NCBI RefSeq assembly: GCF_030824435.1
Contig: NZ_JAVBXS010000051.1
Coordinates: 1 to 47,960 of the forward strand
Direction of reading: 5' to 3'
DNA from: Rheinheimera sp.
GTDB lineage: Bacteria; Pseudomonadota; Gammaproteobacteria; Enterobacterales; Alteromonadaceae
DNA: 47,960 nt
How positions within the stretch are numbered: the first letter of the stretch is position 1; every line of letters begins with the position of its first letter. The translations under genes and the position numbers were made by a program. This document shows positions 2,468-45,694 of this stretch, one piece after another. Under the pieces are notes generated by a model. That model worked only from the letters and a program-made list of their open reading frames with translations. It made no database searches and had not been told where the DNA came from.

Positions 2468-3736
2468 TTATGGGCAGGCGCTGCCATAAATTGAGCTCGC
2501 CCATTGTGGGTTGTCGATAAAAGGATTGCGGTTTTTTTGCAGTTCATAAATCCTGTTATTACGGCGCTGCTCAAAACTATCGACCGGATCGGCCAGATGC
2601 CAGGCCAACAACACACAAAGTTTGCCCATTTGTGGTGCTGTGCTGCCGGTTGGTGCAATATTTGGAATAGATAAGTCTGGTGTGCCGCTGTCATCACCGC
2701 CCTGATAACGGACGTCCATATAAAACAACATCCGGGCTACGTCGCCTTTCACCGCTGCGCGCGGTTCAAAACTGTCGCTGTCGGTTTTGTTTAATGGCGC
2801 TTCAGCAACTGCAGTACCACCATTATCAAAATCTTTATTACCGCGGGTGGAATTAAGCGACACGTCTTCCGGCCTTAAATGATGTAAGTCGGTATGGGCA
2901 TATTGGCTTTCATCCGGAAAACCATGGCTTTTTGCCCAGACATGCTCGCGGTTCCAGGCGTCTAACGAACTGCTGGTGTTTACTTTAAAGGTTTTTGGCG
3001 TGCTGCGACCCGCGTACAACAAAATTACATTGGCGGTATTGGCCGGATCTTCATCGGTATAACTAATGGCATCCCAGACTTCGCTGTAGCTAAAACGGAC
3101 ATGGCCACGCAAAATATTGTTTAATGCGGTTTTAAGCGCCGAACCGGTTAAACCTGTGGTGCCGACATAATAAGTCGGCAGATTGACAGTGCCGGAACCG
3201 CCTGTATCACCACCACCGCCATCACAAGAAGTAGCCAGTAACCCAGACCCCGGCGTGCCTGCATTGCTGCTGACCTGCCAGTCGGCTGCTGTGTTGCTGT
3301 CCGGCACGTTTTTGCGTGCGACAGATTTATCTACAGCATTTAAACCCCAACCGCTTAAGGCATTTTCAAAAGCAACCAGATCAACGTCAGTGCTGCCCTG
3401 GCGCAACTTAACATAATCACCGCTGTTGCCAAGGGATAAAGTCATACCGTTTTGATTGGCACTTTTACCGGTTAGTGCCAACAAAGCACTGCTGTTTTTT
3501 GCCACCACAAAATAACCACCGGCGCTGATAGTGCCGGTTAAGTTAAAGCTGCCACTGTTATCGGCCAGGTTATAACCGGTCAGACTGACGGCTGCGCAGC
3601 TATCGTTATAAATTTCAACATATTCTTCGGTACTGTCGTTATTAGGTGCGTCATACAGCACTTCCGACAATAATAATTTGGCTTGTACAGGTTGTAATAT
3701 AAGGCAGCAACAAGCCGCCAATATCAGACGTTTCAT
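2468..3736 (-). CDS. Secreted endonuclease I family nuclease with N-terminal lamin-tail domain
   Basis: The 422-residue protein begins with a signal peptide (MKRLILAACCCLILQPVQA). A lamin-tail (LTD) beta-sandwich follows at about 20-165 (LLLSEVLYDAPNNDSTEEYVEIYN, split here as LLLSEVLYD and EEYVEIYN). A Gly-rich linker (172-183) leads to an endonuclease I domain from about 205 to the end. The His-Me finger motif is WNREHVWAKSHG with H265; TDLHHLRPED and NSTRGNKDFD supply the metal-binding part. Such proteins degrade extracellular DNA or RNA, for nutrient phosphate or biofilm turnover; ExeM/ExeS-type enzymes are relatives. The start follows GGGGAACTG. Cysteines 47 and 171 may form a disulfide. 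The substrate, DNA or RNA, cannot be told from sequence. Confidence 0.85.
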   Translation of the reverse strand: MKRLILAACCCLILQPVQAKLLLSEVLYDAPNNDSTEEYVEIYNDSCAAVSLTGYNLADNSGSFNLTGTISAGGYFVVAKNSSALLALTGKSANQNGMTLSLGNSGDYVKLRQGSTDVDLVAFENALSGWGLNAVDKSVARKNVPDSNTAADWQVSSNAGTPGSGLLATSCDGGGGDTGGSGTVNLPTYYVGTTGLTGSALKTALNNILRGHVRFSYSEVWDAISYTDEDPANTANVILLYAGRSTPKTFKVNTSSSLDAWNREHVWAKSHGFPDESQYAHTDLHHLRPEDVSLNSTRGNKDFDNGGTAVAEAPLNKTDSDSFEPRAAVKGDVARMLFYMDVRYQGGDDSGTPDLSIPNIAPTGSTAPQMGKLCVLLAWHLADPVDSFEQRRNNRIYELQKNRNPFIDNPQWASSIYGSACP

Positions 3737-3966: not shown

Positions 3967-4837
3967 AAGCCCACATCACCAAAATAGCGGCCAGCACTAT
4001 CAGTCCAAGCCCCAGATAATGTTGTTTTTTCAGTTTTTCTTTAAAGAAAAATGCTGAAATAAGCAAAGTAAACAGCACTTCCACCTGCCCCAGCGTTTTG
4101 ACCAAAGGCACTATTTCCAGGCTCATAGCGGTAAACCAGCCCAAAGAGCCAATACAACTGGTGACACTGGTCAGCAGCGTTAACCTGGGTCTGAGCCATA
4201 AAGCACGCAAGGTTTGGGCGTCACGAACAACCAGATACAACAGCAATAGTACTGTTTGTAAACTTATGACAAAAAGCAACACCCAGGCCGCACCATAAGG
4301 AAATGGCAAACCAAGCGCCAGACTTGCTTCACGCACCCAAAGTGAAGTCAGCGCAAAAGCCAGACCAGAGGCTGAACCTATCAGCACAGTGGGCCAACTG
4401 ATGCTTTTCATACTGCTTAAACCGCTTAACAAAAATACCGCTATGCTGCCGAGTAACACCCCAAGCCAGCCAAGCAGTGTGAGGGAACTTGCAAAAAACA
4501 ACACCCCAAGCACAGCAGCAAAAATGGCTTCACTTTTGGCAAGCCCCACCCCAATGGCGTAGTTTTTTTGTTTAAACAGCACCACCATTAAAGCCGTTGC
4601 CAGAATTTGCATTAAAGATGCCGCCACCACATAAAACACAAAACTGCCGTTCAATTGTGGCAACTGCGCAGTGGGCTCCCGATATAACAACCACAGATAC
4701 AAAGCCGCCAAGGGGCTGGCGTAAATAAAACGCGCCAGCGTCACGCCAAGCACATTCACATCCACACTTAGCTGTTTTTGAAAGGCATTGCGCCAGGCCT
4801 GCATAAAAGCGGCAAGCAAGGTAAATAAAATCCACAT
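3965..4837 (-). CDS. EamA-family drug/metabolite transporter
   Basis: The protein has about ten hydrophobic segments in two tandem halves, as in EamA (DMT superfamily) permeases of the inner membrane. I prefer the start at 4837 (MWILFTLLAAFMQAWRNAFQ, 290 residues), which begins directly with the first membrane segment and has AAGAG upstream. An in-frame start at 4915 would add 26 hydrophilic residues that are not typical of the family. Features include the second-half GSLGWFTAMSLEIVPLVKTL and C-terminal FFFKEKLKKQHYLGLGLI, the usual 'EKL' helix end. The substrate is unknown. It is encoded alone, downstream of a tRNA gene on the other strand. Confidence 0.8.
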   Translation of the reverse strand: MWILFTLLAAFMQAWRNAFQKQLSVDVNVLGVTLARFIYASPLAALYLWLLYREPTAQLPQLNGSFVFYVVAASLMQILATALMVVLFKQKNYAIGVGLAKSEAIFAAVLGVLFFASSLTLLGWLGVLLGSIAVFLLSGLSSMKSISWPTVLIGSASGLAFALTSLWVREASLALGLPFPYGAAWVLLFVISLQTVLLLLYLVVRDAQTLRALWLRPRLTLLTSVTSCIGSLGWFTAMSLEIVPLVKTLGQVEVLFTLLISAFFFKEKLKKQHYLGLGLIVLAAILVMWA

Positions 4838-21879: not shown

Positions 21880-22920
21880 TCATGGACAGATGCTTAACAC
21901 CAGTTTGCCGACAACAGCGTTATTCGCCAGCAGCTGATGGGCTTTGTCAGCCTCTCGCCAGTCAAAGCTTTGCGCTATCAGCGGGCGGAGTGCACCTGTT
22001 GACAAGTGCCCGCCAAAACGCTGTAAAAAAGTCTGACAAAGTGCCGTTTTGTAACTATCAGTGCGGTTGCGAAGTGTTGAACAAATCAGCTGGCCGCGTT
22101 TTTTAAACATCAACGCCAAATCAAAAGCCGGAACCTGCCTGCCGCCCATCATCGCCAGCACCACAATACGACCATCGAGCGCCAATAATTGCAAATCTTT
22201 GGGGATATAATCCCCTGCCACAGGGTCGACAATAACGTTAAAACCTTGCGGCACTAGAGCTTTGAGCTCAGCAGAAAAATCAGCATTTTTGTAATTAATA
22301 CAAAAATCAGCACCCAGTGCTTTGCAGGCAGCGGCTTTTTCATCTGATCCAACCGTCACAGCAACAGTGGCGTTCATTGTTTTGGCCAGACGGATGGCGG
22401 CAGTACCAACACCGCTGGCGCCGGCATGAATAAGCACAGCGCCGCCTGCAGAAAGGCCGCCGAGCTCAACCATGGCCTGATAAGCCGTTAAAAACACTTC
22501 GGCTGTGCCTGCCGCCTGTAAAGCGCTGATCCCATCCGGACGCTGTAAAATATGGCCTTTATGCAACAGCGTATATTCGGCATAACCACCACCAGGTACT
22601 AAACCAAATACTTCCTGGCCCAGCCAATGTTGCTGACTGTTATCACCAACAGCGACCACAGTGCCGGCAACTTCTAAACCGAGAATGGGGCTTTCCCCAG
22701 GTGGTGGCGGATAAATACCGGCCCTCTGGGCTAAATCTGCTCTGTTAATGCCGGCAGCAGCCACTTTGACCAGCACTTGATCCGCTGAAGGCACCGGCAG
22801 TGGCAACTCAACAAATTTGAGTGTGCTGTCTGGCCCCGGATGTTCTACATCTATGGCACTCATGGTTTTGGGTAGTGATATGTTGTTGGATAACAAAGTT
22901 GTGGCAGCTAAATGTGGCAT
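21880..22920 (-). CDS. NAD(P)H quinone oxidoreductase, PIG3 type
   Basis: The 346-residue enzyme belongs to the zinc-independent medium-chain dehydrogenases. It has the N-terminal fold with GINRADLAQRAGIYPPPPGESPILGLEVAG and a Rossmann domain with HAGASGVGTAAIRLAK. The phrase GTAEVFLTAYQAM is typical of the PIG3/QorA branch. It reduces quinones or related carbonyl substrates with NADPH. I take the start at 22920 (MPHLAATTLL) because AAAAGGATG precedes it. The ATG at 22863 (MSAIDVEHPG) fits the family length but has no ribosome-binding site. It is monocistronic. Confidence 0.85.
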   Translation of the reverse strand: MPHLAATTLLSNNISLPKTMSAIDVEHPGPDSTLKFVELPLPVPSADQVLVKVAAAGINRADLAQRAGIYPPPPGESPILGLEVAGTVVAVGDNSQQHWLGQEVFGLVPGGGYAEYTLLHKGHILQRPDGISALQAAGTAEVFLTAYQAMVELGGLSAGGAVLIHAGASGVGTAAIRLAKTMNATVAVTVGSDEKAAACKALGADFCINYKNADFSAELKALVPQGFNVIVDPVAGDYIPKDLQLLALDGRIVVLAMMGGRQVPAFDLALMFKKRGQLICSTLRNRTDSYKTALCQTFLQRFGGHLSTGALRPLIAQSFDWREADKAHQLLANNAVVGKLVLSICP

Positions 22921-35877: not shown

Positions 35878-35998
35878 AGCGGCACGCAAACGCTGACTGG
35901 ACTGACTACGTAAATCAGCGTAGGATCACTGTCAATTCAGTTTACAAAGATTTGTTTTTTATCCGAGCTTTCGGCGAAAAAACACTATGATACAACGA

Positions 35999-36022
35999 CA
36001 TATGTTTGTGGCACAAAATATG
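35999..36022. promoter_or_regulatory. Operator-like palindrome in front of the HprK/PqqD operon
   Basis: The core TTTGTG-G-CACAAA is perfect, and the palindrome extends (with one extra base on the left arm) to CATAT on the left and ATATG on the right. It lies 34 bases before the first start codon, which has a perfect AGGAGG. A TATGAT sequence a little upstream (near 35987) may be the -10. Confidence 0.45.
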
Positions 36023-36055
36023 CTTAACACTAGTCTGTTGTATTAGGAGGAAGTT

Positions 36056-36652
36056 ATGCAAGAGCAACCCGAAAACAAGTCAGTCGAATCATCCGTTCCT
36101 TCGGTCTCTGCGCATGCCACAGATTCTGGTAAGTCACGTCGCCAGTTTTTGACAAAAGCAACAGCAGGTTTAGTGATTGCCAGTCTGCCAGCACGCTCAG
36201 TTTGGGCAAGTGGCGGTGGCGTAGCGCAGTCTATCGTCGCTTCAGGGCACGGCTCTGACTTCTCCGGTGGCGATCCTATCGAATTATTGTCACCTGGTTA
36301 TTGGTCAAATCATGAAATTCAGAACCATACATTAAACTTTTACACAGTGTTTGGTGGTCGCGCCTTTACAAAAAGCGGTTCTCCTGCGTTAAAAACATCC
36401 CTGACCTTTGGTGACATTCTGGTTGGTGATCCCAAAAACAAAGGTGCGGGTAACTGTAACTTCCATATGGTAGGTATCTATCTGAACGCTATCTATCATG
36501 GTCAATTTGGTATCAATTATCCTATTATTGGTATTGGTCAGCCTTTTGCAACCGCAGGTGATTTTGCCAGTTACCTATACAACAAAGCCTTGCTTGATCC
36601 TTACAGTGTCGGCAGCGAGCTGAGCTCCATTATCGATAACTACCACGCTTAA
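36056..36652 (+). CDS. Tat-exported protein with SPGYWSNH motif, possible substrate of the HprK/PqqD system
   Basis: The 198-residue protein has a long, Ser-rich N-region and a twin-arginine signal (SRRQFLTKA, R28-R29, hydrophobic stretch to about 50, then VWASG). After cleavage, about 145 residues remain. SPGYWSNHEIQNHTLN at 79-94 resembles the (S/T)PGYWKNHP motif common in secreted proteins of unknown function. A single Cys (C134) is in GAGNCNFHMVGIYLNAIYHG. I do not recognise a domain or known function. It starts at 36056 behind AGGAGG. It is the first gene of a four-gene operon, the natural candidate for a substrate of the downstream enzymes. Tat export implies folding, and perhaps modification, before export. 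Confidence 0.75.
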   Translation: MQEQPENKSVESSVPSVSAHATDSGKSRRQFLTKATAGLVIASLPARSVWASGGGVAQSIVASGHGSDFSGGDPIELLSPGYWSNHEIQNHTLNFYTVFGGRAFTKSGSPALKTSLTFGDILVGDPKNKGAGNCNFHMVGIYLNAIYHGQFGINYPIIGIGQPFATAGDFASYLYNKALLDPYSVGSELSSIIDNYHA

Positions 36653-36653
36653 T

Positions 36654-36679
36654 ACCACTGTCTGCAATGGAGCAGTGGT
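36654..36679 (+). promoter_or_regulatory. Hairpin with the PqqD start codon in its loop
   Basis: ACCACTG (36654-36660) and CAGTGGT (36673-36679) pair around a 12-base loop that contains the ATG at 36667. No Shine-Dalgarno sequence precedes this ATG. It could lower translation of the downstream genes relative to the Tat protein. Confidence 0.45.
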
Positions 36680-36906
36680 TTCAACAAGCAGTTGTTATTC
36701 ACAGTTTTGCGGATAACTCAGGTACAGTGTTTTTTCATATGCACAGCGGCGAAACTTTAGCTTTAAGTTTGCCGCTTTTTGCTATTTATCAGCAATTGGC
36801 TGAGACCTCATCAGAATTACGTCAGAATCGGTTAGTGATGCAACGACTGAAATTGTTTCTGTCTGACACTGCGGTCAACAATCTGAGCCCCTCCGATGAC
36901 ATTTAA
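36667..36906 (+). CDS. PqqD-like small protein of the HPr-rel-A type
   Basis: The 79-residue protein lies between a Tat protein and an HprK-like kinase. Its length, the beta-rich start (FFHMHSGETLALSLPLF) and the C-terminal helices (LFAIYQQLAETSSELRQNRL and later) fit PqqD, a winged-helix 'RiPP recognition element' that binds precursor peptides. Similarity to classical PqqD is weak by eye; the assignment leans on the neighbourhood, which is that of the 'HPr-rel-A system PqqD family peptide chaperone'. The kinase ATG overlaps its end by 11 bases, so they are translationally coupled. It would work in the cytosol as an adaptor. Confidence 0.6.
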   Translation: MEQWFQQAVVIHSFADNSGTVFFHMHSGETLALSLPLFAIYQQLAETSSELRQNRLVMQRLKLFLSDTAVNNLSPSDDI

Positions 36907-37771
36907 CGTCAGATACCTGAACCTGCCACCTTTTTGTTTTGAAATCCGCACTGACATCAGCAAAGTCGCTGCCAATTTGCAACATATTTACGGTGATACT
37001 TTGTCATGCACAGCACAAATACCTGATTATTATCTGACTTTAAGTGCCGGCAGCGGGCTGCGTAAATATATCAGGCCTCAGGCGAGGTTTTTGGCAGATC
37101 AGCAGGAGCCTTTTAAACCAATTGAGGTTGATAACGGTTTTGCATTACTCGAATGGGGTATGAACTGGTGTATTGCAACCACGGAAATGCGGTTTGTCAT
37201 AGTGCATGCCGCTGTTCTGGCAAAAGATGGCAAAGCGGTGTTGTTTCCAGCGCCGCCTGGCTCGGGCAAAAGTACCCTCACCGCCTGGTTGGCATTTAAT
37301 GGCTGGCGTTTATTGTCTGATGAAATGGCGTTGTTGATCCCGGGTACTAATACAGTTATTCCTTTTGTGCGCCCTATTTGCCTTAAAAATCAATCTATTG
37401 ATTTGGCCAGAAGCTGGTTCCCTGAAGCCAGGTTCTCGTCCGTTGCCAAAAACACCCATAAAGGTGATGTGGTTCATTTGTCGCCCCCTGCCGACAGCTG
37501 GTTGCAGAACACTGTATCTGCTGAAGTGGTTGCTATCGTCTTTCCTAAATATAACAAAGCCCAACAACTGGAAATTACCGCTTTAAGTCAGGCGCAGGCC
37601 TTTATGGCACTGGCAGAAAATGCCTTTAACTTTAGTTTGGCTGGAGCCGAAGGTTTTCACACCATAGTGAAGCTGGTAGAACAATGTCAGAACTACGAAG
37701 TAACGTACAGCCAGGTGGCTGAATTGGCAGAGTTTTTACAACAGGATGTGTTGCCTTATGCCCATCCGTGA
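36896..37771 (+). CDS. HprK-related kinase A
   Basis: The 291-residue protein has an HPr kinase-like P-loop fold. Walker A is PAPPGSGKST (about 118-127), preceded by VIVHAAVLAKDG and followed by WRLLSDEMALL (138-147), equivalent to the acidic catalytic and Mg-binding segment of HprK. The N-terminal hundred residues lack the HprK N-terminal domain of Gram-positive enzymes. HprK-like kinases phosphorylate serine; relatives in lasso-peptide clusters (PadeK/ThcoK type) phosphorylate a precursor's C-terminal Ser. No ptsH, HPr gene or PTS component is in this window. It overlaps both neighbours, so the three enzymes are made together. Confidence 0.82.
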   Translation: MTFNVRYLNLPPFCFEIRTDISKVAANLQHIYGDTLSCTAQIPDYYLTLSAGSGLRKYIRPQARFLADQQEPFKPIEVDNGFALLEWGMNWCIATTEMRFVIVHAAVLAKDGKAVLFPAPPGSGKSTLTAWLAFNGWRLLSDEMALLIPGTNTVIPFVRPICLKNQSIDLARSWFPEARFSSVAKNTHKGDVVHLSPPADSWLQNTVSAEVVAIVFPKYNKAQQLEITALSQAQAFMALAENAFNFSLAGAEGFHTIVKLVEQCQNYEVTYSQVAELAEFLQQDVLPYAHP

Positions 37772-38876
37772 CATCATTATTCAGTTATTCCTCGGCAAAG
37801 ATCCGGGACCACTACAGCCGCAAGACTGGGCCAGTATAATCCGGGTACTGCGGTATCAACAGTGTCTGGCCCGTTTGGGCTGGCGGCTGCGAGATAAGGG
37901 GTTATTGGCAACTTTGCCTGATTATGTGCTGAATCATCTGAAAAACGCTGAGCTTATTGCACAAAAACAGTATCACCAGGTGCAGTATGAAGCCAAACTG
38001 TTAAACCGTTTGCTGAAGCCTTTGACTACAAACCTGCTGTTTCTTAAAGGTGCAGCTTATTCGTTAACAGAGCACGCCAATGTTGGCCTTGGGCGCACTT
38101 ACAGCGACATCGACCTGCTGGTCGATCGACCAAGTTTATTGCGGATCGAACAAGAACTGTGTTTATACGGTTTTTTTGCAGAAGATCTCGATGAATACGA
38201 CCAGAAATATTACCGTGAGTGGTCGCATGAAATACCGCCATTACGCCATGGCAACCGCGGTACCCTGCTGGATGTGCACCATAATTTATTACCGCTGATG
38301 ACAGGCAGAGCACCCGACATCCAGCTGTTTTTTCGCCATACCCAACAAACCAGCGCTGGTTACTTTGTGTTTAGCCCGGCAGCCATGTTGTTACACAGCG
38401 CAATACATCTGTTGCTGAGCGAAGAAATTAAACATGGTTTTCGCGATCTCACCGATTTGTATTTAATTCTTGAGCAGTATCAAAGTCCGGATTTTTGGCA
38501 GGAATTATTGCTGTTGGCCACACAAAGCGGTTTTGCCAGCGAACTTTTTTTAGCTTTGCGTTATAACCAGAAAATTCTGGCTTTTGATGTTCCACCACAA
38601 GTTTGGCAACAGCTGGAGCCCTATCAACCCGGCAAATTTCAACAACGCTGCCTTGATTTTATCTTTATGCGTAAGCTCCAGCCTGCTCACCCGATATCTG
38701 CCACAAGCGCCGACGCCATTGCTGATTTTTTGCTGTTATTACGTGGCCATTACCTGAAAATGCCATTGTGGTTGCTGTTAAAACACCTTAGCCGTAAGTT
38801 CAGCCGGCAAATGCTCAGCGCTGTTTTTGGCAGTAATATTTTTGACAAAAAGACCGACCAGTCCAGCCAGAAGTAA
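37758..38876 (+). CDS. NTP_transf_5-type nucleotidyltransferase of the HprK/PqqD operon
   Basis: The protein (about 372 residues) belongs to the large nucleotidyltransferase family PF14907. Key features are LLFLKGAAYSLTEH, the GS-motif analogue, then RTYSDIDLLVDRPS with the metal-binding Asp pair (about residues 117 and 119), and GTLLDVHHNLLP carrying a likely third acidic residue. I prefer the ATG at 37758 over 37746, whose ribosome-binding site would be too close. It overlaps the kinase by 14 bases. Related proteins in lasso-peptide clusters (PsmN type) act after a kinase, on the new phosphate. The 32-base gap to the thi promoter suggests the operon ends here. Confidence 0.8.
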   Translation: MPIRDIIIQLFLGKDPGPLQPQDWASIIRVLRYQQCLARLGWRLRDKGLLATLPDYVLNHLKNAELIAQKQYHQVQYEAKLLNRLLKPLTTNLLFLKGAAYSLTEHANVGLGRTYSDIDLLVDRPSLLRIEQELCLYGFFAEDLDEYDQKYYREWSHEIPPLRHGNRGTLLDVHHNLLPLMTGRAPDIQLFFRHTQQTSAGYFVFSPAAMLLHSAIHLLLSEEIKHGFRDLTDLYLILEQYQSPDFWQELLLLATQSGFASELFLALRYNQKILAFDVPPQVWQQLEPYQPGKFQQRCLDFIFMRKLQPAHPISATSADAIADFLLLLRGHYLKMPLWLLLKHLSRKFSRQMLSAVFGSNIFDKKTDQSSQK

Positions 38877-39010: not shown

Positions 39011-42578
<3,568 letters not shown>

Positions 42579-43676: not shown

Positions 43677-44447
43677 GTGTTTGAACTTGGTCATGAACAA
43701 TTTCACAGCCGTTTGCTGCTTGGCAGCGGCAAGTTTGCCAGCCCACAGCAGATGCTGGAAGCCATCAGTGCCAGCGGCACGCAAATGGTCACTCTGGCAC
43801 TAAAAAGGCTAAAACCAGGCCAGCCCTCACCCGATTTATTAACGCCTTTACAACAAGCTGGTGTGCGGCTTTTGCCCAATACTTCAGGGGCAGTCAATGC
43901 CAAAGAAGCGATATTTGCTGCAGAGCTGGCCAGTGAGCTGTTAGAAACCAACTGGGTTAAGCTGGAAATTCACCCCGACCCACGTTATTTATTGCCGGAT
44001 CCCCATGAAACCCTGTTGGCAGCAACAGAGCTTTGCAAACTGGGTTTTATTGTGTTGCCTTATTGCAGCGCTGATCCGGTGCATTGCCAGGCTTTGCAGG
44101 ACGCAGGTTGTGCAGCAGTGATGCCGCTGGCTTCCCCTATCGGTTCGAATCAGGGGCTGCAAAACCGGCTGATGCTGGACATTATTATCAGTCAGGCCAG
44201 AGTGCCGGTGATTATTGACGCTGGTATTGGCAAAGCATCCGATGCCTGCGCCGCCATAGAAATGGGCGCCAGCGCTGTGTTGGTCAATACCGCTATTGCC
44301 ACGGCCCAAAATCCGGTGTTGGCCGCCCGGGCATTTAAGTTGGCGGTAGAAGCCGGATTTGCCGGATCCAGAGCACAATGCGCGCCGGCACAAAACGCTG
44401 CCAGTGCCACCAGTCCGGTGGACGCTTTGTTGGATTATTTACGATGA
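43677..44447 (+). CDS. thiG: Thiazole synthase
   Basis: ThiG forms the thiazole phosphate from deoxyxylulose phosphate, dehydroglycine and ThiS thiocarboxylate. The 256-residue TIM barrel has the Schiff-base lysine K95 in [11 protein letters not shown], and [29 protein letters not shown] and [30 protein letters not shown]. It starts with GTG one base after the thiS stop, behind GCAGGAGG. It overlaps thiH by four bases. Confidence 0.96.
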
Positions 44448-45694
44448 CTGATCACGGTATCATTGTGGCTACAACGCCATTATCTGAACAATATCAGCAA
44501 CATTTTCCAGACACTGCGGCTAGCCCTCTAGCAACACAACAATCAGTGGAAGCACAGTTATCAGGAAAAACCCCGCTTTTTAGCGAAGTGCTGGCACAGA
44601 CTGATTTTTCCACTTTGCAGTTAATACCAGCCGATGAAAACCGCATTAAACAAGCACTTTATGCCCAAAAGCCAGAGATTGCCGATTTAGCTGTGTTGTT
44701 AAGCCCGGTCGCAACAGCCTTTTTGCCAGAGCTGATACAACGTGCAGCGCAGCTGACAAAGCAGCACTTTGGTGCTGCAAGGCAATTATTTGCGCCACTT
44801 TATATGTCCAACCTGTGCGCCAACGAATGTACTTATTGTGGTTTTTCGATGAGTCAGGCCGTGAAACGACGGGTGCTAAATAGCGAAGAATTATTACAGG
44901 AAGCAGAAGCGGTAAAAGCGCTAGGGCATGATCAGTTGTTGCTGGTCACAGGTGAACATGAACGTAAAGTGGGCATGGATTATTTTCGCCGGCAAATTCC
45001 GCTGCTGCGGCCATTATTCAGCCGCCTGATGCTGGAAGTGCAGCCACTGACAACTATTGAATATCAGGAACTTAAGCAGCTTGGCATCGACACTGTGCTG
45101 GTCTACCAGGAAACTTATCAGCAGCAGGCGTATCAGCAATATCATTTAAAAGGCAATAAAACCGATATGCGCTGGCGGCTTGATTGCCCGGACAGGCTTG
45201 GTAAGGCCGGTATCGACAAAATTGGTTTAGGCATTTTATTGGGCCTGGCGGATTGGCGGTTGGATGCATTTTACCTGGCAACACATCTGCGCCACTTGCA
45301 AAAACATTATTGGCGTAGCCAGTTCAGTGTGGCTTTTCCAAGGTTAAGGCCTTGTAGCGGTGGTATTGAGCCCAAGGTGCTGGTGGGTGATAAGGAGCTG
45401 GTGCAGTTGTATTGTGCTTTTCGTATTTTTGCCCCTGAGCTGGAGCTGATTTTATCCACCCGCGAACGCGCCCGACTTCGCGATTTATTGTTGCCGCTGG
45501 TGATCACCAGTATCAGTGCCGGCTCTAAAACCCAGCCAGGGGGTTATCAGGTGGCGCCCGAAGCTTTACAACAATTTAGTATTGATGATGAGCGTAGCCC
45601 TAAAGAAATGGCCGCTGTTTTAACAGAACTTGGTTTACAACCGGTCTGGACCAACTGGCATCCGGCTTTTGGCCGGGGCTCATCTTGCTCATAA
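44444..45694 (+). CDS. thiH: Tyrosine lyase, radical SAM enzyme ThiH
   Basis: ThiH cleaves tyrosine to dehydroglycine and p-cresol, the anaerobic-type route to the thiazole. The 416-residue protein has the radical SAM motif [11 protein letters not shown] (C125, C129, C132) and the C-terminal ThiH region ([39 protein letters not shown]). The start at 44444 (MTDHGII) overlaps the thiG stop. Presence of ThiH rather than ThiO is consistent with a gammaproteobacterium. The operon ends here; 186 bases follow to the lipoprotein gene, without a clear terminator. Confidence 0.95.

Follow-up and report, generated by a model that had tools for sequence, protein, structure and literature searches.

A serine-tailed Tat-signal protein as the probable substrate of an HprK-related kinase cassette linked to exosortase A

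What do the enzymes of HPr-rel-A cassettes act on? Such enzymes are annotated in many Pseudomonadota, and in the open-licence PMC literature we found no stated target for them. The question is raised by a 47,960-nucleotide stretch of Rheinheimera sp. DNA (contig NZ_JAVBXS010000051.1 of assembly GCF_030824435.1), hereafter referred to as the window, in which four plus-strand genes form one unit (36056-38876). They code for a protein with a twin-arginine translocation (Tat) signal, a PqqD-like protein, an HprK-related kinase and an NTP_transf_5 protein. We propose that the first of these is very probably the substrate of the other three. The complete reading, in which a serine of the Tat protein is phosphorylated under the guidance of a recognition element (RRE) typical of ribosomally synthesized and post-translationally modified peptides (RiPPs) and then receives a sugar or nucleotide, all within the exosortase-A/exopolysaccharide programme, we consider reasonably likely.

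RESULTS

The four-gene unit and its enzymes

The gene for the Tat-signal protein (198 residues, the proposed substrate) occupies positions 36056-36652 and follows a Shine-Dalgarno sequence, AGGAGG, read at 36045-36050 of the same strand. Fourteen bases after its stop codon starts the gene for the PqqD/RRE-like protein (79 residues, the proposed substrate presenter; 36667-36906). This gene shares 11 bases with that of the HprK-related kinase A (291 residues, 36896-37771). The last gene, for a 372-residue protein with a nucleotidyltransferase fold, runs to 38876 and starts either at the ATG at 37758 or at 37746, so that it overlaps the kinase gene by 14 or 26 bases. An earlier interpretation of the window made from the letters alone (the sequence-only reading) had described the four open reading frames (ORFs), their overlaps and a strong ribosome-binding site, and all of these are in place.

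Profile searches put the kinase well over the cut-off of TIGR04352 (HprK_rel_A; 326.8 bits, cut-off 200) and the transferase well over that of PF14907 (134.7 bits, cut-off 31.2), bearing out their previously suggested HPr-rel-A identity. Each model has a single match in the host genome (E<=0.001). The 23 aligned kinases invariantly contain H104, the P-loop residues G122, G124, K125, S126 and T127, S141-D142-E143 and K164-N165; invariant in 25 aligned transferases are K97-G98, R113, D117-x-D119, D172 and H174. As far as can be judged from the sequences, both enzymes look intact. A profile of the 23 kinases matches HPr kinase in the PDB (E 0.0034), and for the transferase no solved relative was found by sequence at E<=1.

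The Tat gene accompanies the kinase

We considered 394 genomes of the order and 398 of the phylum, the loci of both samples being taken with ~1.5 kb of flanking DNA. In addition, 80 kinase loci were drawn from the genome_contigs collection. They are the best 80 of at least 346 confirmed relatives, and some of their genomes are common to the order sample. Loci, genomes and families are denoted by L, G and f numbers, respectively. The substrate alignment (A2) comprises the window protein and proteins from 67 of the 80 loci; left out were L048, L051, L059, L060, L063, L067, L074, L075, L077, L086, L090, L092 and L093. The arginine pair of the Tat signal was used to find most of the Tat proteins, and the serines discussed below played no part in finding them.

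The kinase is over cut-off in 33 of the 394 genomes of the order. The A2 profile matches 41 genomes: the 33 kinase genomes, G197 and seven others in which only the C-terminal part is matched. In each of the 33 kinase genomes the match takes in the Tat-and-serine region, though often without spanning the whole profile; among the 361 kinase-less genomes a single weak match of this kind is seen (G197, positions 23-69, E 3.6e-4). In the seven other kinase-less genomes the match is confined to positions 75-182. Six of these matches lie in frames of 276-308 residues with N-termini that are Sec-like by eye and the seventh lies in a longer frame; no Tat signal was seen by eye in these proteins, the start of the seventh frame not having been read. 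The association of kinase and substrate profile has a Fisher's exact test value of 8e-49 without G197 and 3e-47 with G197 counted against it. Values of this kind, for the substrate and for the exosortase discussed below, overstate independence because genomes within one order or phylum are related.

The same picture emerges from individual loci. A substrate is present in 79 of the 80 kinase loci, 67 times by the Tat rule (the members of A2) and 12 times by the A2 profile alone. It is also present in all 29 order loci that were read. As a rough control, 20 of the 741 other ORFs in the 80 loci are Tat-like by a similarly loose rule. Four loci (L063, L067, L075 and L092) have the Tat gene downstream of the trio, and L093 has it on the other strand. 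The gene is doubled in three loci, with two copies in L067 and L075 and a second copy on the other strand in L033. In L033, a second kinase match and a second substrate (2935-3549 and 4121-4729) lie next to the main cassette on the opposite strand, which suggests a duplication. The sequence-only reading had treated the Tat gene as a partner of the trio, and homologous operons indeed carry it as a rule (33/33 genomes, 79/80 loci).

A signal, a serine tail and a predicted domain

The Tat signal of the window protein, SRRQFLTKATAGLVIASLPARSVWA, consists of a twin-arginine motif (SRRQFL, the arginines being residues 28-29), a hydrophobic stretch and an AxA-like end. The protein scores 11.2 bits against the generic model TIGR01409, under the cut-off of 16.7. 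TatC is present in the host genome (228.3 bits). Twelve further Tat candidates from the host genome were considered; seven have a Tat-like frame, and S-x3-S-[GAN] follows only one of them, in a doubtful frame.

Behind the signal, AlphaFold predicts a disordered tail followed by a confident domain at ~71-198. We rejected the assignment of a known domain: at E<=0.01 the window protein matches no Pfam or NCBIfam family, only weak matches to other Tat signals (E 0.08) being seen, and the 68 family members match at this threshold only generic Tat-signal models (TIGR01409 and TIGR02811, three members each) and, weakly, two further models once each. No significant solved relative was found by sequence (best E 0.63) or by fold in the PDB (one match, E 5.9), nor was a significant fold relative found among viral models (best E 3.6).

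The 68 type I proteins, as we term the window's kind, are diverse (12% mean column identity), and their sole invariant columns are R28, R29 and S63. A wider alignment of 112 distinct type I rows, from which type II loci, L001 (truncated), L010 (a duplicate) and identical rows were removed, has serine at column 63 in 112/112 rows, a count favoured by the fact that rows were aligned to a profile having serine there. The arginines R28 and R29 are kept in 111/111 rows, S59 in 108/112, S67 in 104/112 and N144 in 103/111. Position 63 is always serine and never threonine. The codons of the conserved serine stretch (residues 56-67, including S59, S63 and S67) occupy 36221-36256 of the plus strand. The most conserved non-Tat positions of the protein are thus serines in the disordered tail. 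A peptide kinase of the HprK type would require just such a site, a conserved group of serines in a flexible segment immediately after the leader.

Substrate types

The substrates fall into three types. Type I has SxxxSxxxS, often with S-P-G-Y-W further on. Type II, found in the phylum sample in families such as f58, f61, f65 and f78, has a C-terminal [ST]-C-W-x-S (19 aligned). Type III, found in nine f63 loci (L178-L186), ends in SGFTC[FY]ASLQ. L187 and L191 have Tat proteins that cannot be placed cleanly in any of the three. Differing as they do in sequence, all types keep Tat signals. In a FastTree phylogeny of 149 kinases, two changes, the minimum, account for the types assigned to 144 of them (left out of this count were L187, L188, L189, L191 and L193, as well as L001, L010, L035, L039 and L044). 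Therefore, enzymes and substrate kind have largely travelled together.

Type II and III partners share a C-terminal end resembling [ST]-C-[WFY]-x-S-[FLI] (L113, L116, L117, L119-L127, L131-L134, L138-L140, L178-L186, L192, L194 and L195). By analogy, this motif is a possible different acceptor, reminiscent of the C-terminal serine modified by lasso kinases. As a separate observation, the proteins without a visible Tat signal from the seven kinase-less genomes (L153-L159) have the GYWK...LNA part that type I substrates carry at the C-terminus.

The PqqD-like protein and its relatives

The alignment of PqqD-like proteins (A3, n=47) consists of the window protein and 46 of 66 candidate ORFs. Among these proteins from the same position, TIGR04353 is matched by 30/47 and Pfam PqqD by 11/47 (E<=0.1). 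Among solved sequences, the profile comes closest to TfuB1 and TbiB1, both lasso RREs (E about 4e-4). A profile of the window's clade (15 sequences) matches a profile of the 24 others with E 3.4e-5 and probability 72. The predicted model has strands at residues 9-13, 20-24 and 30-33 followed by helices, a strand-strand-strand-helix-helix arrangement. We assign the protein as an RRE with moderate confidence, its identity resting on its relatives, which point to the lasso type.

A promoter element of the PEP-CTERM kind

According to the main text of PMC1569441, proteobacterial PEP-CTERM genes are preceded by two motifs, the first 17 nt long with TTTACA at its end and the second of the sigma-54 kind, separated by a spacer of 62.8 +- 10.6. 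A similar arrangement is seen upstream of the Tat gene. Motif 1, TGTCAATTCAGTTTACA (35930-35946, plus strand), corresponds to the first part of the PEP-CTERM cis-regulatory element and is a probable site for PrsR, a sigma-54 activator. Motif 2, TGGCACAAAATATGCT (36009-36024, plus strand), resembles a sigma-54 promoter with GG-N10-GC and lies 62 bases past motif 1 and 31 before the ATG. There is one mismatch to the palindromic form of motif 1 and one in motif 2. TTTACA and the 17-nt length were taken from PMC1569441, and the left half, TGTAAA, was completed from the window's own sequence. A second exact TGTCRR-N5-TTTACA match, on the minus strand at 22022-22038, is internal to an ORF and was set aside as probable chance.

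A sigma-54 site (<=2 mismatches, within 250 bases) was found before 57/97 type I genes, 41/629 other ORFs and 26/1940 shuffled sequences. Both motifs together (within 400 bases) were found in 42/97 type I and 0/20 type II regions, compared with 13/628 other ORFs and 0/1940 shuffles. Of these 13 control matches, five precede PEP-CTERM-like ends, four precede substrate ORFs missed by our filter and four are other cases. When the sigma-54 site was kept and the preceding DNA shuffled, the motif 1 threshold was reached in 157/2900 trials as against 42/58 real regions. These scans left out L067, L010, L059, L035, L039, L044 and loci with short upstream DNA; near-copies among the 97 regions were kept. 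A strict pattern, TTTACA-N50-75-TGGCAY-N5-WTGCW, occurs at two places in the host assembly (0 in the reversed control). One is before the Tat gene and the other before the gene of a protein whose C-terminus, AEPGYLALLGLTLLVMYRRRQLRVK, resembles a PEP-CTERM tail. The host genome also codes for PrsR (694.8 bits, cut-off 502.6). Judging by its upstream sequence, the operon carries the bipartite sigma-54 element of PEP-CTERM genes.

Co-occurrence with exosortase A

By cut-off, exosortase (PF09721) is present in 33/33 kinase genomes of the order, compared with 84/394 genomes overall, and all 33 are among the 41 genomes of this sample with an exosortase of >=200 bits. The host exosortase is XrtA (347.2 bits, cut-off 208), coded on another contig next to genes for the glycosyltransferase, amidotransferase and FemAB protein of the XrtA system. 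On that contig (C98; L175, 8532-10436), the TIGR03108 amidotransferase also scores 257 bits against the lasso cyclase model NF033535, whose cut-off is 525.

In the phylum sample the kinase is present in 61 genomes, XrtA over its cut-off in 35 and both in 25. The 36 genomes with kinase and without XrtA all belong to 13 families (f55, f58, f61, f65, f67, f71, f74, f76, f78, f81, f83, f86 and f87). Among the 36 genomes, seven show a weaker exosortase match that stays under the cut-off for XrtA, and several are incomplete. Substrates from these families are type II wherever the C-terminus was read (it was not in L128 and L137). Outside the 13 families, the cassette is accompanied by XrtA in 25/25 genomes. 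Ten genomes of the phylum sample have XrtA without the kinase; therefore, XrtA does not need the cassette. Neither the exosortase link nor the serine cluster and the sigma-54/PEP-CTERM element had featured in the sequence-only reading.

Genomic neighbourhood

Nine neighbouring genes were scanned, including those for an exonuclease, endonuclease I, an asparaginase, a helicase and the thi genes. An exonuclease I-type gene lies upstream of the unit, and a thiamine pyrophosphate (TPP) riboswitch (RF00059, 38917-39018, 78.9 bits) precedes the thiamine genes downstream, so the four-gene unit stands alone. Neither a lasso macrolactam cyclase nor a B2 protease was found among the nine neighbours, and neither an SpI-type leader peptidase nor an MsbA-like exporter was found among them or the cassette ORFs. 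With no cyclase among the neighbours scanned, a lasso peptide cluster was ruled out. The sequence-only reading had noted the absence of both a lasso cyclase and radical SAM genes. Its first half stands within the neighbours scanned, and the second does not, as radical SAM genes are present downstream (ThiC, 39162-40979; Radical_SAM/BATS, 44378-45694). We do not count these to the cassette because they are set among the thiamine genes behind the riboswitch.

Two further features were noted near related cassettes. An HtrA-like serine protease, whose members form one cluster of related proteins, is present in 29 of the 80 kinase loci, at a median place ~2 kb upstream and on the same strand in 26 of the 29; an example is a 264-residue protein in L045 (4204-4998; matches below model cut-offs). 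This protease may be either a partner or part of a shared neighbourhood. In L118, L130 and L137, ORFs upstream of the cassette resemble glycosyltransferases by eye.

DISCUSSION

A possible sequence of events and its alternatives

By analogy with the linear polyphosphorylated peptides (LPP) and pseudomycoidin described below, from which we infer the chemistry and function of the cassette, the following order of events may be envisaged. In the cytoplasm the RRE/PqqD-like protein would grip the precursor by its N-terminal region, and the HprK-type kinase would phosphorylate a serine of the SxxxSxxxS motif, in the flexible stretch that immediately follows the Tat signal. Ser63 is the first choice, and its phosphorylation has somewhat better than even chances in our estimate. 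The NTP_transf_5 protein might then build on this phosphate by adding a sugar or nucleotide, a step that we put forward tentatively. The folded and tagged protein would exit through Tat and its signal would be removed, which would leave the tag about a dozen residues from the new N-terminus if the presumed cleavage site is correct. Sigma-54 and PrsR would switch the operon on together with PEP-CTERM proteins. Because of this predicted shared control, the product would probably work in the exosortase-A/exopolysaccharide surface layer, although whether it belongs to that layer is in our view an evenly balanced matter.

Several observations weigh against this proposal. Column 63 lacks serine in 18/20 aligned type II rows though the enzymes are the same; therefore, the family as a whole does not follow a single acceptor rule. 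The Tat gene was found in 25/29 phylum loci and 15/18 further loci, and reading of the DNA did not reveal it in L118, L129, L130 and L136 of the former or in L188, L189 and L193 of the latter. A PqqD profile had been expected to recognize the second gene product. The window's own protein scores 13.5 bits against TIGR04353, below the cut-off of 35, so this expectation holds for its relatives, whose nearest solved counterparts are lasso RREs, rather than for the protein itself. The best PDB fold match of its model, TbiB1 with a leader peptide, is weak (E 0.12, template-modelling score about 0.35). Among 140 loci, the PqqD-like ORF was found in 123 by its own profile and missed in 17, and the transferase was found in 125 by a single-sequence search and missed in 15; these misses mix contig ends, wrong starts and divergence. 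A sigma-54 site is present in 8/20 type II regions though those genomes mostly lack XrtA, and by the two-motif rule 39/97 type I upstream regions have no such site. Finally, deletion of the NTP transferase in an LPP system was without effect in a heterologous host (main text of PMC13381572).

It might be argued that the target of the kinase and transferase is a lipid, a polysaccharide precursor or some small molecule, and that the Tat protein is a downstream component that, for example, binds the finished product through its serine tail. The company that the cassette keeps with exosortase and exopolysaccharide genomes would fit this, as would the location of some loci near glycosyltransferase- or exosortase-related genes (recognized by eye, except for the acyltransferase TIGR03694 in L062, recognized by profile), and the chemistry of PsmN itself is described as unsettled in the review PMC9266682. 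However, HprK relatives in such neighbourhoods phosphorylate peptides, as far as that review and the main text of PMC13381572 go. An RRE-type protein likewise points to a ribosomal substrate, and the top conserved positions outside the Tat signal are serines in a disordered tail, which together make a non-protein target unlikely in our view. Phosphorylation of the tail could also serve as a switch that holds back or releases Tat export, for quality control or timing, with the mark later removed or irrelevant. The serines immediately follow the signal peptide, and a bulky or charged addition at this place could influence export; HprK, the parent family of the kinase, is regulatory. Such a switch would nevertheless leave a transferase with conserved D117-x-D119 without a role, and we regard it as rather improbable.

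A third explanation, namely that the Tat gene is a mere neighbour carried along by operon conservation, draws on the mostly conserved gene order. It is hard to reconcile with a gene that shifts relative to the trio and is sometimes doubled, with substrate types that differ and yet all keep Tat signals, or with a complete co-occurrence in the order seen against a low background of Tat-like ORFs. The phylogenetic profile and the movement of the gene led us to reject chance neighbourhood, for which we see hardly any room. The substrate relationship is thus the reading that we favour. A bolder extension, in which the cytoplasmic phosphoserine would be the attachment point joining the folded, exported protein to the exopolysaccharide of exosortase-A bacteria via the sugar or nucleotide added by the transferase, would turn the cassette into a RiPP-type module making protein-polysaccharide conjugates of the matrix; we consider it a long shot.

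These results name a candidate target protein family, one without a Pfam or NCBIfam model in our scans, for the HPr-rel-A enzymes. The predicted acceptor serine, together with growth conditions relevant to PrsR/sigma-54 and exopolysaccharide, is offered for seeking the modification. If the proposal is true, recognition and kinase chemistry of the RiPP type extend to cargo that Tat exports in folded form, and a secreted component with a covalent modification joins the surface programme of exosortase A.

Comparison with known systems

Parts of this arrangement are already known: the trio itself (as HPr-rel-A, by model name), the combination of RRE, HprK-like kinase and NTP transferase (LPP of Bacillota) and hexose on phosphoserine (pseudomycoidin). 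The cassette resembles HPr-rel-A in that its kinase is well over the TIGR04352 cut-off with PqqD-like and PF14907 genes alongside. The names of the NCBIfam models (TIGR04352; TIGR04353, PqqD family peptide chaperone), by which alone the comparison is made, are silent on a Tat partner, an acceptor serine or a promoter. In the open-licence PMC literature we found no description of a partner exported by Tat, of SxxxSxxxS as acceptor, of the substrate family, of a PrsR/sigma-54 element at this place or of the exosortase link, and an earlier remark in supplements or NCBIfam comments is possible. One paper reportedly places PqqD, HPr kinase and a nucleotidyltransferase together in a lasso context.

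The SynChlorMet cassette, which has radical SAM partners, is only weakly similar. The kinase scores 27.4 bits to ScmC, far under the cut-off of 125, the ScmD model is matched by 3/47 PqqD-like proteins (E<=0.1), and the Tat cassette has no radical SAM partner. With the PEP-CTERM/exosortase A system (PrsK/PrsR/PrsT) it shares the same kind of bipartite promoter, and the host has both XrtA and PrsR, but the proposed substrate carries a Tat signal and ends without a PEP-CTERM tail. The main text of PMC1569441 does not mention HPr, PqqD or nucleotidyltransferase.

Further parallels come from peptide tailoring. In pseudomycoidin, according to the review PMC9266682, PsmK and PsmN phosphorylate and then hexosylate a serine. 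The tailoring of paeninodin and pseudomycoidin (PadeK, PsmK, PsmN) is similar in that an HprK-like kinase is followed by a nucleotidyltransferase homologue, giving hexose on phosphoserine. It differs in its substrate, a short lasso precursor with a C-terminal serine, where here the partner is a Tat protein without a cyclase or B2 protease among the neighbours.

Another close system is that of the LPP of Bacillota (published May 2026). As described in the main text of PMC13381572, their clusters contain a discrete RRE, an HprK-like kinase and an NTP transferase, a set that is also found here, the RRE identity again depending on relatives. The residue of a linear peptide that LppK phosphorylates is Ser3, immediately after the leader; S3T and S3Y are not accepted, in keeping with the serine, never threonine, at position 63 of type I. 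Both systems lack a lasso cyclase of their own, both have an acceptor serine near the leader (predicted here), and the location of LPP clusters in polysaccharide loci adds to the likeness. The same main text contains no mention of twin-arginine, Proteobacteria or Pseudomonadota. LPP precursors (35-200 residues) have the leader motif YxxPxVLxHQxIxFETxxS and are served by an SpI-type peptidase and an MsbA-like exporter; in place of these, the cassette described here has a Tat signal and a predicted folded domain.

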